Shown here one piece after another: positions 26,523-40,141 of a stretch of DNA of 64,000 nucleotides. The stretch is from Halorarius litoreus (GTDB lineage Archaea; Halobacteriota; Halobacteria; Halobacteriales; Haloarculaceae), in contig NZ_CP101454.1 in the NCBI RefSeq assembly GCF_024362405.1, positions 3,534,001 to 3,598,000 of the forward strand. The letters are read 5' to 3'. The translations under genes were made by a program, and so were the position numbers. Under the pieces are notes generated by a model. It ran no database searches and was not told the DNA's origin. It saw only the letters and a list, made by a program, of their open reading frames with translations. Numbering within the stretch: the stretch's first letter is position 1; every line of letters begins with the position of its first letter.

Positions 26523-27959
26523 TCACTGTCTGAAGTACTGCCCGGTGACGTAGAGCGACGCGCCGAGGATGAACACGGCGCCGACGAGGACCACGATGCG
26601 GGCGGGGTCGAACAGGACTTCGGCCCCGGTCGTCGCGTCGGGGGTCGACGTACGGGCTTGCGCGACGTCCTCCCCGACCTCGATGCGACCTGCCTCGACC
26701 CCTTCCACGGCGACGGTCCCAGCGACGGCCTCGAACGGGATGGTCACGTTGCGCTGCTCGTTCGGGCCGAGCGAGACGGTCTCGTTCGCCACGGACTGCC
26801 CGTCGACGGTCACCGTGAGCGTCCGGTTCGCCGCCAGGCTCGCCTCGTTCACCACGGTCGCTCGCACGCTGGCTTCGAACCCCGTGGCGACCCACTCGGC
26901 CGGGAGCGAGGCGCCGACGACCCGGACCGCGTCCGAGCTCGCGGTCATGGCCGTCACGGTCAGCGTGCCGAGCGGCCGGTCGTCGACCGCCAGTTCGTAC
27001 TCACCGGGAGTGTCGAACTGCTGTTCGAAGCCGACCGTTCCAGTTCCACCGGCCTCGACGAACACCGTCTCGGTGGCGACGATCTCGCCGTCCACGAGCA
27101 GGTCGGCCTCGAACGTCCCATCGCGCCCGCCGACGTTCTCGACCTGCATGGAGACCTGCACGGTCTCACCAGCGGAGATCGTCGTCCGGTCGAGCGTCGC
27201 CGTGGAGACGCTGAAGCTCGCGGCGGTCGAGGCTGACGTCGACGCCGGTGTCGGCGAGGGGCTGGGGGTTGCCGTCGGATTTGGCTCGTCACGCGAGCCG
27301 CTGGACCCGCTCCGTGTATCCGACGGCTCGTCCCGTTCGGTGGGACTCGCTGTGGGCGTGGCAGAGGCGGTGGGGGTTGCTGTGGGCGTCGACGTCGGTG
27401 TCCCATTCGCTGTCGGGGTTGCTGTCGGGGTTGCTGTAGGCGTCGGGGTCGACGTCACTGTTGGGATCGTAGACGGTGTCGGCGACGGTGTCTGTGTGGC
27501 CGTCGGCGTCGGAGTGGGGTTCGGCGTCGCTGTTGGGGTTGGTGATGGGGTTGGAGGTGGTGTTGCGGTTGCCGTCGCAGTCGCGGTTGCCGTCGCGGTC
27601 GCGGTTGCCGTTGGGGTTGCCGTCGCGGTCGCGGTTGCCGTTGGGGTTGCCGTCGCGGTCGCTGTCGGCGTCGGGGTTGGGATGGGGGTCGCGGTCGCTG
27701 TCGGTATCGGTGCGGCCGTCGCAGTCGCCGTTGGGGTGTCAGTCGCGGTCGCTGTCGGCGTGTCGGTTGCTTCCTGGGTGGGGGTCGCTGTCGTCGTCAG
27801 GAGCTGTGCGGACGACGAGTCGACCATCAGCGCCGAACCACTCGCAAATTCGTTCCCCCCAGTGGCGAGCAACGAACCGCCGGAGATCGTTCCACCGACG
27901 CTGCCGCTCGCGATAACAAGCACCACGAACACGAACGTCACGACGATACCCCCTTTCAT
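26523..27959 (-). CDS. secreted CARDB protein with long Thr/Pro/Ala linker and C-terminal membrane helix
   Basis: A 478-residue surface protein. The N-terminal helix ([21 protein letters not shown]) may be a signal peptide or anchor. Residues about 60-240 are almost entirely Thr, Pro and Ala (PTATAT-type) and could be O-glycosylated; the DNA here is tandemly repeated. Residues about 250-345 form a CARDB-like domain ([53 protein letters not shown]), and about 350-430 a second related domain ([36 protein letters not shown]). A final helix ([18 protein letters not shown]) anchors the C-terminus. There is no PGF-CTERM motif. The role is unknown, perhaps a cell-surface spacer. Confidence 0.8.
27601..27660. 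repeat. two exact 30-base tandem units in the Thr/Pro/Ala linker
   Basis: The same 30 bases (starting GCGGTTGCCGTTGGGG) occur at 27601 and 27631 without a mismatch, in a wider run (about 27330-27790) of shorter related units. They are in frame and encode Thr/Pro/Ala repeats, so copy changes would alter linker length without breaking the protein. Confidence 0.75.
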
Positions 27960-36851: not shown

Positions 36852-36934
36852 CTGTTGTCTTGAGGGGGTGAGCGAGGGCACATAATCGTTCCGCGAGCGG
36901 GGCGCTTTTCGCGGGGGGCACTCTCGTATGTGGT

Positions 36935-37738
36935 ATGCCAGGTGAGATGCCGCGACTCGGCCTCGGGACGTACGAACAGACCGACCCGGACGTCTGTGCT
37001 GCGAGCGTCGAGACCGCACTGAACCTCGGGTACCGACACGTCGACACCGCACAGGGCTACGACAACGAGGCAGCCGTCGGCGAGGGGATCGAACGCGCCG
37101 ACGTCGACCGTGAGGACGTGTTCCTCGCGACGAAGCTCACGCCCGAGAACCTCGCGTACGACGACGTCGTCCACTCGACGAAAGCGTCGATGGACCGACT
37201 CGGCGTCGACCGTATCGACCTGCTGTACGTCCACTGGCCGCTGTCCGCCTACGACCCTGCGGACACCTTGCCCGCGCTCGACGAGCTCCGAGATCGGGGG
37301 TGGATCGACCACGTCGGACTCTCGAACTTCCTGCCCGAGCAACTGGACGAGGCCCGCGACCACCTCGACAGCCCTATCTTCGCCCACCAGGTCGAGTGCC
37401 ACCCACTCTTCCAGCAGGACGAACTTCGCGAGTACGCCCGGGAGGACGACCACTGGCTCGTCGCCTACTCGCCGCTCGGGAAAGCCGAAATCTTCGACCA
37501 CCCGGTCATCGCAGCCGTCGCCGAGAGCCACGACCTGCCGCCCGCACAGGTCTGTCTCGCGTGGCTGCTCTCGAAGGACGAGGTCGCCCCGATTCCGAAA
37601 GCGACCGGCGACCACATCGCGGAGAACTTCGGGGCACTGGACGCGACGCTCTCCGAGGAGGCCATAGAGCGCATCGACGAGATCGAAGCAGAACAGCGAA
37701 AGGTCGACTTCGAGGCGGCTCCCTGGAACCAGCACTGA
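36935..37738 (+). CDS. aldo/keto reductase
   Basis: A 267-residue NADPH-dependent TIM-barrel reductase. The catalytic tetrad is visible: Asp in HVDTAQGYDNE, Tyr in the same motif, Lys in LATKLTPEN and His in LYVHWPL. The cofactor end has SPLGKAE and IPKATGDHIAENF. It is slightly short, as many prokaryotic 2,5-diketo-D-gluconate-reductase-like members are. The substrate cannot be told. A TATA-like GCTTTTCG about 28 bases before the ATG at 36935 supports this start. It diverges from thyA. Confidence 0.92.
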   Translation: MPGEMPRLGLGTYEQTDPDVCAASVETALNLGYRHVDTAQGYDNEAAVGEGIERADVDREDVFLATKLTPENLAYDDVVHSTKASMDRLGVDRIDLLYVHWPLSAYDPADTLPALDELRDRGWIDHVGLSNFLPEQLDEARDHLDSPIFAHQVECHPLFQQDELREYAREDDHWLVAYSPLGKAEIFDHPVIAAVAESHDLPPAQVCLAWLLSKDEVAPIPKATGDHIAENFGALDATLSEEAIERIDEIEAEQRKVDFEAAPWNQH

Positions 37739-37787
37739 CGCGACTCGGTAGCTGAACCCGAGTGCGTGCCATTTTCTGTCAATGCGA

Positions 37788-37798
37788 GTATATTTTCG
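37788..37798 (+). promoter_or_regulatory. TATA box upstream of the exported protein at 37819
   Basis: GTATATTTTCG is centred about 27 bases before the ATG at 37819. It fits a leaderless transcript and supports that ATG. Confidence 0.6.
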
Positions 37799-37818
37799 CA
37801 GAGCACGTACTCCGTCGT

Positions 37819-38460
37819 ATGAACCGTGTCCCTCCTGTCGCGCTCGTCGTCGCGCTCGTGTTCACCGTTCTCGTCGGGAGTGCGTTCTCGTTCGCTGACT
37901 TCGGTGCCACCCAGAGTGCCACCAGCGTCCAGTCCGGCGTGTCGACGTCGTCGATCGGTGACGAGACGGTCGACCTCTCGGGCGGCCTCTACGTCTTCGT
38001 CGCGGGAGACGACCCCGCCGACCGGGAGTTCGCCACGGCTCTCGTCGACGAGCTCCGGGCACGCGGGGTCGACGCGGAGGAGGTCACGGAGCTCCGAGAG
38101 CAGTTCGACCGCCCCGTCATCCTCGTCGGCCACGAGGTGTGGCGACTGGACTACACGCCGGTCCGGGCCGACGCGACCGTCGACTGGCAGTTCCTCTACG
38201 TCCAGTCGGGGACGCTCACGCAGTTCGGGAGTTCGACCCCGTGGGACGACGACTTCACGCCTACCAGACTGCTCGAACGGCTCGCAGCTGACGACTTCAG
38301 GCCGATCATCCTCTCGAACGAAACGACCGTCGTCGTCGACGGCCATTTCACGCTGACCGACGAGACGACGGGCGTGTTGTCGTTGCCGCACTACGACCGC
38401 CACGTTCGGGACGCCGTCGCGGTAGCGACCGTCGATGCGTTGCTCCCCGACAGCCGCTGA
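37819..38460 (+). CDS. exported or membrane-anchored protein, hypothetical
   Basis: A 213-residue protein with an N-terminal hydrophobic segment (VALVVALVFTVLVGSAFSF) that is a signal peptide or anchor. The rest is an acidic alpha/beta domain: GGLYVFVAGDDPADREFATALVDELRARGVDAEEVTEL, then PVILVGHEVWRLDYTPVRADATVDWQFLYV and a C-terminal helix. The first strand-helix-strand unit looks like a flavodoxin- or Rossmann-like fold, but no family is recognised. A TATA box supports the start. Confidence 0.7.
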   Translation: MNRVPPVALVVALVFTVLVGSAFSFADFGATQSATSVQSGVSTSSIGDETVDLSGGLYVFVAGDDPADREFATALVDELRARGVDAEEVTELREQFDRPVILVGHEVWRLDYTPVRADATVDWQFLYVQSGTLTQFGSSTPWDDDFTPTRLLERLAADDFRPIILSNETTVVVDGHFTLTDETTGVLSLPHYDRHVRDAVAVATVDALLPDSR

Positions 38461-38504
38461 GCCATCGGCCCGTCGCGTTCTGTCACTGCACTCGAGTCAC
38501 TCCG

Positions 38505-39669
38505 TCACCGTTCGTCGGCAGGAATCGCCCGCGAGATGACGACCGCGCCCTCGGTCGTGCCGTCGTCGGTGACCAGCGCGGAGATGTCGAGCTCCGAGCG
38601 GACCGGTCCAACCGTGGTTTCGATGTCGAAACGCACCCGTTCGTTCCTCGACCGCTCCTCGAGAACGTTCGTGAGCGCCGTGATGAACAGGTCGCGGGCA
38701 GCCTCATCCTCGATCATTTCCTCGGTCAACTCTCGGACGTCGGTTCCCTCGATCGCCGACCGGGGGACACCGGCGTAGTCGATCGACGCCCGATTGACCA
38801 GCGTGACGTGGAACGACTGGTCGACCGTGTACGCGACGTCCGACATGTTCTCGACGATGGCCGCGTACTGGCGGAGCGTTCGCTCGCGGGCTTTCCGCGC
38901 CGTGATGTCTCGCGTGTAGGCGACGACGCCGTGCACGTCGGGGTCATCACGGAGGATCTTCCCCCGGTTCTCGACCCAGACCCACGTGCCGTCGGCGTGT
39001 CTGAGTCGAATGTCCCTCGGCGCTGCCTCCGCTGCACCCGCGAGCAAGTCGGTGAACTGTGCCCACATCTCGTCCGTGTCGTCGGGGTGGATGTAGTCGA
39101 ACGCGTGTGTTCCGAGGAGGGCGTCGGCCGTGTAGCCAAGGAGCGGTTCGATCGCCGGAGAGACGTAGGTGAACGTGCCGGTGTCGTCGACGACGGTGAT
39201 GAGGTCAACCGCATCTTCGATGAGTTTCGTGAACCGTCGCCGTGTCGCGGCGGTCTGCTGTTCCGCACGGAACCCCTCGACGAGGTTCGCGATGCGGTTG
39301 GCCAGCACCGTGTATCGCTCCGTGCCGGTCCCCTTCTGGAGGTAGTCGCTCACACCCTACACCCTCGGAGATGGCCGCCGAAGCGATCTCTTCGCTTCCC
39401 TGTGCGGTGAACAGGACGAACGGTAGGTCGGGGAACTCCGTACGGACGGCTCGAAGGAACGCCAGCCCGTCCATCTCGGGCATATCGTAGTCGCTGACGA
39501 TGCAGTCGATCTCCTCGGTGGCGAGGCGGTCGAGGCCCGCGGACGCGCTCTGTTCAGTGAGGACTGTCAGTGCCTCGGATTCACGTTCGAGGAACGCCCG
39601 TGCCATGTCGACGAACCCCGGTTCGTCGTCGACGTGGAGTACCGTGATGCCTCCAGCGGCCACCCACAT
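38505..39669 (-). pseudogene. receiver-PAS-PAS sensor gene, frameshifted by a 7-base tandem duplication
   Basis: Read on the minus strand, the first part (from 39669) encodes a response-regulator receiver domain: acidic pair in VLHVDDEPGF, phospho-acceptor Asp in CIVSDYDMPEMDG, and FVLFTAQGSEE. At ISEG the frame breaks. In the other frame the same protein continues with SDYLQKGTGTERY, which holds the conserved receiver Lys, then two PAS domains (LIEDAVDLITVVDDTGTFTYVS, RDITARKARE; second to the end). No histidine-kinase domain follows. ACACCCT is repeated twice at 39352-39365 (plus strand); removing one copy restores EGVSDYLQKG. The downstream frame could start from GTG at 39353. Confidence 0.85.
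39352..39365. repeat. perfect 7-base tandem duplication causing a frameshift
   Basis: ACACCCT occurs twice in a row. Seven is not a multiple of three, so the second copy shifts the reading frame inside the receiver domain. Confidence 0.9.
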
Positions 39670-39805
39670 AGTACGGCGGCCGAGTATTATTAATTATCCG
39701 CCGACGTTATCTGGAAGAGATATTACCGAATGCGACCCTGACTCGATGACCCGTCAGTTCTGGACGGGGGAGAGGGCTTTTGACCCCGGCGGCTGTGCCC
39801 CTGCT

Positions 39806-40141
39806 ATGGCATACACGACCGCCAGCACCGACGATATCGACTCGGTCGTTCCCGAAGAGTGGGGTGGGATGTGGTTCTTCCGCAACGCGCTCGGCTGTGA
39901 GCAAGTGGGACTCACGCTCCTCGAACTCGAACCCGGAGGGAAGGGCAAACAGCACAGCCACGAGGGGACCGACCACGAGGAGGTGTATCTCGTCGTGGCC
40001 GGCGAGTTGACGGTCGAACTCGACGACGAGACGCTCACGCTCGGCGACGGCGAGGCTGTCCGTGTCGACCCGGGGACGACACGCCAGCTGTTCAACCGGG
40101 GTGACGACCGGCTCCGGGTCGTCATCGCCGGAGCACCCTGA
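39806..40141 (+). CDS. cupin-domain protein
   Basis: A 111-residue single cupin. The two cupin motifs are visible: GKQHSHEGTDHEEVYLVVAGELTVEL (metal-binding His, His and Glu) and GEAVRVDPGTTRQLFNRGDDRLRVVIAG. The second motif has no histidine where many cupins have one (PGTTRQ), so metal binding may be altered. Such proteins are isomerases, dioxygenases or sugar-binding; none can be chosen. The ATG at 39806 is preceded by a TATA-like CTTTTGA at about 28 bases. Confidence 0.82.
   Translation: MAYTTASTDDIDSVVPEEWGGMWFFRNALGCEQVGLTLLELEPGGKGKQHSHEGTDHEEVYLVVAGELTVELDDETLTLGDGEAVRVDPGTTRQLFNRGDDRLRVVIAGAP

Follow-up and report, generated by a model that had tools for sequence, protein, structure and literature searches.

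A receiver-PAS-PAS regulator gene of Halorarius litoreus broken by a 7-bp tandem duplication, probably a recent frameshift

Response regulators of the REC-(PAS)n type, which carry a receiver and PAS domains but no output domain, are a described archaeal class, listed in table 2 of Galperin et al. 2018 (PMC5847659). According to the passages of that survey that treat them, these regulators are expected to act via dimerisation or protein contact, and none has been studied experimentally; truncated or frameshifted REC proteins were few and were excluded from the count (PMC5847659). Insertions and deletions at short direct repeats are also on record in haloarchaea. In Halobacterium salinarum, 42 pyrE2 mutants shared the same 7-nt deletion, located at a direct repeat of 9 nt, and the authors, in the account cited here, regarded it as either a hotspot or a pre-existing mutation (PMC2816208). 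We investigated a REC-PAS-PAS gene of Halorarius litoreus that is interrupted by a 7-bp tandem duplication. It lies in a stretch of 64,000 nucleotides, referred to below as the window.

The duplication and the two reading frames

The duplication occupies positions 39352-39365, where the plus strand reads ACACCCTACACCCT, a perfect tandem of two ACACCCT units (AGGGTGT twice on the coding minus strand). It adds a net 7 bases and moves the frame by one. An exact search of the 4.17-Mb genome returned a single match to this 14-mer. The run of period-7 matches is exactly 14 bases long, and a search for microhomology beyond the 7-bp unit at this site found none, leaving the duplicate itself as the only predisposing repeat. 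The tract thus consists of two copies of 7 bp and is not a hypermutable multi-copy tract.

The broken gene spans 38505-39669 on the minus strand and is divided into two overlapping frames. ORF1 (39669-39205, minus strand, 154 aa) starts at an ATG and matches Response_reg over residues 10-103 (E 1.1e-17). Its receiver is cut after V104 and is followed by a tail of ~50 out-of-frame residues. ORF1 retains D14/D15, D60 and T88, whose roles we assume by analogy with CheY-type receivers, and is without K110 and the other residues at the receiver's end. By the same analogy we take K110 to be the receiver lysine, which agrees with the conserved alignment column. An A/T-only stretch at 39685-39697, noticed by eye 16-28 bases upstream of the ORF1 ATG on the minus strand, may be the TATA box of a leaderless or near-leaderless transcript.

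ORF2 (39353-38505, minus strand, 282 aa) starts at a GTG within the second copy of the unit and ends at the normal stop of the gene. It encodes the end of the receiver, which ORF1 does not, followed by two PAS domains. The first of these gave a strong Pfam match (residues 40-150, E 7.1e-22), and the second is weak, with a PAS_7 match at residues 167-243 that falls under its curated cut-off; TIGR00229 matches ORF2 in two stretches. No Pfam match to HisKA, HATPase or HTH was found in ORF2, which ends after the second PAS. A GAGG stands nine bases upstream of the GTG, so weak independent translation of ORF2 is possible.

When one copy of the unit is removed, a single open frame of 385 codons runs from the ATG of ORF1 through to the stop of ORF2; it reads REC-PAS-PAS, with AISEGVSDYLQKG at the join and without HisKA, HATPase or HTH. 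Counted on this one-copy translation, the frame break falls after V104, six residues ahead of K110. Since ORF1 leaves the receiver frame ahead of K110, the sequenced gene has no frame that encodes a whole receiver. Both frames are otherwise free of stops and frame breaks. The initial annotation, made from the sequence alone, had described the ACACCCT duplication at these positions, a joined receiver-PAS-PAS frame on removal of one copy and a break just before the conserved receiver lysine, and these three descriptions hold.

Homologues, neighbourhood and coding signal

To place the one-copy reading among its relatives, we collected 21 homologous ORFs, 17 of which were aligned with it. The alignment was gapless across the break in all 17, and 11 of them carried a lysine in the K110 column. 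The six without it (L150-L153, L159 and L160) are REC-PAS-PAS-like proteins of 397-421 aa, and their receivers perhaps form a degenerate group, as judged from the alignment. Receiver and PAS lay in one unbroken frame at 28 of the 29 family loci examined (L020-L048); in the exception, L030, no receiver was matched in the frame. L029 was the closest homologue across the receiver and the first PAS, with 54% identity over 251 aa. Intact REC-PAS-PAS proteins of 393-421 aa that have no C-terminal kinase exist elsewhere (for example L033, which continues for 48 residues past the query end, and L150-L153, these five measuring 393-398 aa), and the ancestral product therefore looks complete. Many other homologues run on for 190-450 more residues.

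Searches for an orthologue or a one-copy allele were negative at every level. A DNA search of the two genomes of the genus matched nothing but short pieces of paralogues (67-88%), and a protein search of 146 family genomes found nothing outside the own genome better than 37-38% over 264 residues. A one-copy allele was not found with the neighbourhood DNA among 195 relatives, in which the matches were mostly to the aldo-keto reductase, nor on genome contigs (best 43-52%), and no place on plasmids covered 80%. Since no orthologue was found, the one-copy ancestor is deduced from homologues of 30-54% identity.

The neighbours of the broken gene all lie on the plus strand: on one side a gene of 232 aa at 37762-38460, for which NCBIfam gave no match, preceded by the aldo-keto reductase (36935-37738), and on the other a small cupin-like gene (about 39806-40141, named by eye). 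The flanking DNA is collinear, at 78-83% identity, with that of G001, a second genome of the genus, but there the 2.7 kb between the flanks carries other genes, including a PAS sensor with a kinase-like C-terminus (named by eye); the broken gene therefore has no orthologue there. Comparison of the interval between thymidylate synthase and cupin (window 36902-39801; L149 5630-8361) showed that its gene content differs entirely between the two genomes of the genus: the aldo-keto reductase, the gene of unknown function and the REC-PAS-PAS gene here, a phosphotransferase-like gene and the PAS sensor in L149. This interval is a small replacement site.

We next asked how much the tandem itself says. 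The window contains seven perfect 7-bp tandems, whereas 50 first-order Markov sequences had 8.6 on average (range 2-14). The host, marked as a haloarchaeon by its homologues, has a G+C content of 66.8%. Such tandems are common in DNA this rich in G+C, so the tandem alone proves nothing, and the coding gain was therefore scored across all out-of-frame tandems. The window and a sample of twenty 20-kb stretches from the same genome served to train a codon model, and every perfect tandem with a unit length not divisible by 3 was scored with and without one copy over 464 kb. The tandem at 39352-39365 ranked first of 2,180 (491 of which have a unit of 5 or more) for coding gain without one copy. When ten high-gain tandems were viewed, it alone clearly united two halves of one protein; the other nine were judged by eye to be gene ends, gene starts or weak open frames.

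An independent frameshift-aware gene model placed a shift at 39348. Across the sample and the window, this model reported 39 events; 11 at ~31 bases or less from the end of a stretch were set aside, 28 were viewed and five of these were viewed more closely. Many had an upstream stop a few bases from the new start, as gene junctions do.

A recent frameshift and its alternatives

The explanation that we favor, with a probability of roughly 0.7, is that a REC-PAS-PAS response regulator was frameshifted by a recent tandem duplication that destroyed its function and was unselected or acquired in culture. Outside the duplication the gene shows no sign of decay, and the duplication is therefore probably recent. 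One copy of the unit would be ancestral, and polymerase slippage or local repair would be the likely source of the second. The gain of 7 would shift the frame after V104 and leave a receiver fragment that, lacking the last strand, the helix and the lysine, is presumably non-functional, together with a PAS-PAS fragment that would be translated at most weakly, from the internal GTG. Loss of one copy could reverse the event at a low rate, as for any short tandem duplication. As an ordinary frameshift the event is of small import: an annotation lists two truncated genes in place of one regulator. Programmed +1 frameshifting was also considered and rejected; no known slippery motif was seen by eye, and two extra residues would stand before the last receiver strand.

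Among the alternatives, a sequencing or assembly error, with a true chromosome that carries one copy and an intact gene, is the one that survives best, and we regard it as unlikely. The undamaged remainder of the gene is what an intact gene would give. Base-calling errors, on the other hand, do not typically take the form of a clean duplication of 7 bases away from any homopolymer, and the frameshift-aware model reported only one other event in the window, at 27733, where no gene is broken.

A reversible on/off switch had been proposed in the initial annotation, which itself named a fixed mutation and an error as other possibilities. In such a phase switch, the regulator would be silenced in the population when a 7-bp copy is gained and restored when it is lost, and the two alleles might sit together among the many chromosome copies of one haloarchaeal cell. 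Of the initial interpretation, disruption of one receiver-PAS-PAS gene by the duplication stands, on the evidence of frame, homology and coding signal, but reversible switching found no positive evidence, and we consider it very unlikely. The geometry does permit exact restoration of the frame. Spontaneous tandem duplications inside pneumococcal capsule genes have been described as controlling phase variation (Waite 2001, 2003, as cited in a passage of PMC4022640), and H. salinarum is reported, in the account cited above, to carry ~20 copies of its chromosome in each cell (PMC2816208). Against a switch, there are two copies only and no longer array, no second allele was seen, and breaks do not recur in the homologues, the one locus of 29 without a receiver in its frame having no receiver at all. 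For pneumococcal capsule mutants whose insertions do not exceed 9 bp, the passage cited expects reversion at 10^-5 or so at most (PMC4022640). Judged by this figure, the site could revert, though not more rapidly than a duplication that arose by chance. No haloarchaeal tandem-repeat switch appeared among the matches listed in a search of the open-licence literature. Nothing marks 39352-39365 as an evolved switch. The more specific proposal, that a haloarchaeal signaling gene is toggled by one 7-bp unit with on and off alleles coexisting within a single polyploid cell, is to be given little credence. If true, such a switch would make a haloarchaeal two-component protein phase-variable, which would be unusual, and polyploidy would add a further twist.

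Similarly improbable is an arrangement in which the receiver and PAS-PAS fragments are both made, with their functions parted and ORF2 translated from its own GTG. The position of this GTG inside the second copy, nine bases downstream of the GAGG, would allow some independent initiation. The product of ORF1, in contrast, would have no receiver end and would carry the ~50-residue out-of-frame tail. ORF1 also extends 149 bases beyond the ORF2 start, which makes coupled re-initiation unlikely, and no examined homologue is split in this way: 28 of 29 are joined, and the other has no receiver.

Least probable of all is a 7-bp target-site duplication that an insertion sequence would have left on excision: exactly two copies without extra microhomology resemble a target duplication, but among the five DDE_Tnp_1 family matches in the genome no element with 7-bp target duplications was found, and the one with clear ends has a target duplication of 9 bp, CACGCTCTG. 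This DDE transposase element (L183 1441-2391; G000:C1 about 2251340-2252290) has the ends GGCCTTGTTTAGACG. A 141-bp stretch elsewhere on the same contig (G000:C1:2577150-2577290) has the same inverted ends and is probably a transposase-less derivative of it.

Comparison with described systems

We compared the recent frameshift that we favor with the three described systems closest to it. The pneumococcal capsule genes are alike in that a tandem duplication inside an open frame silences the gene, and its loss is possible in principle. There, variation is reported as observed, in the passage that cites Waite 2001 and 2003 (PMC4022640), whereas one allele is known here.

The pyrE2 mutation of H. 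salinarum is a deletion selected with 5-FOA, and its independence is doubted in the account cited, whereas the change here is a duplication (PMC2816208). Both are 7-nt changes at a short direct repeat with loss of function.

The REC-(PAS)n class, as described in the passages cited from Galperin et al. 2018, has the same REC-PAS-PAS order and no obvious output domain, and differs from the present copy in that the latter is frameshifted (PMC5847659). On its predicted domain order, the gene at 38505-39669 is a frameshifted member of this known class.
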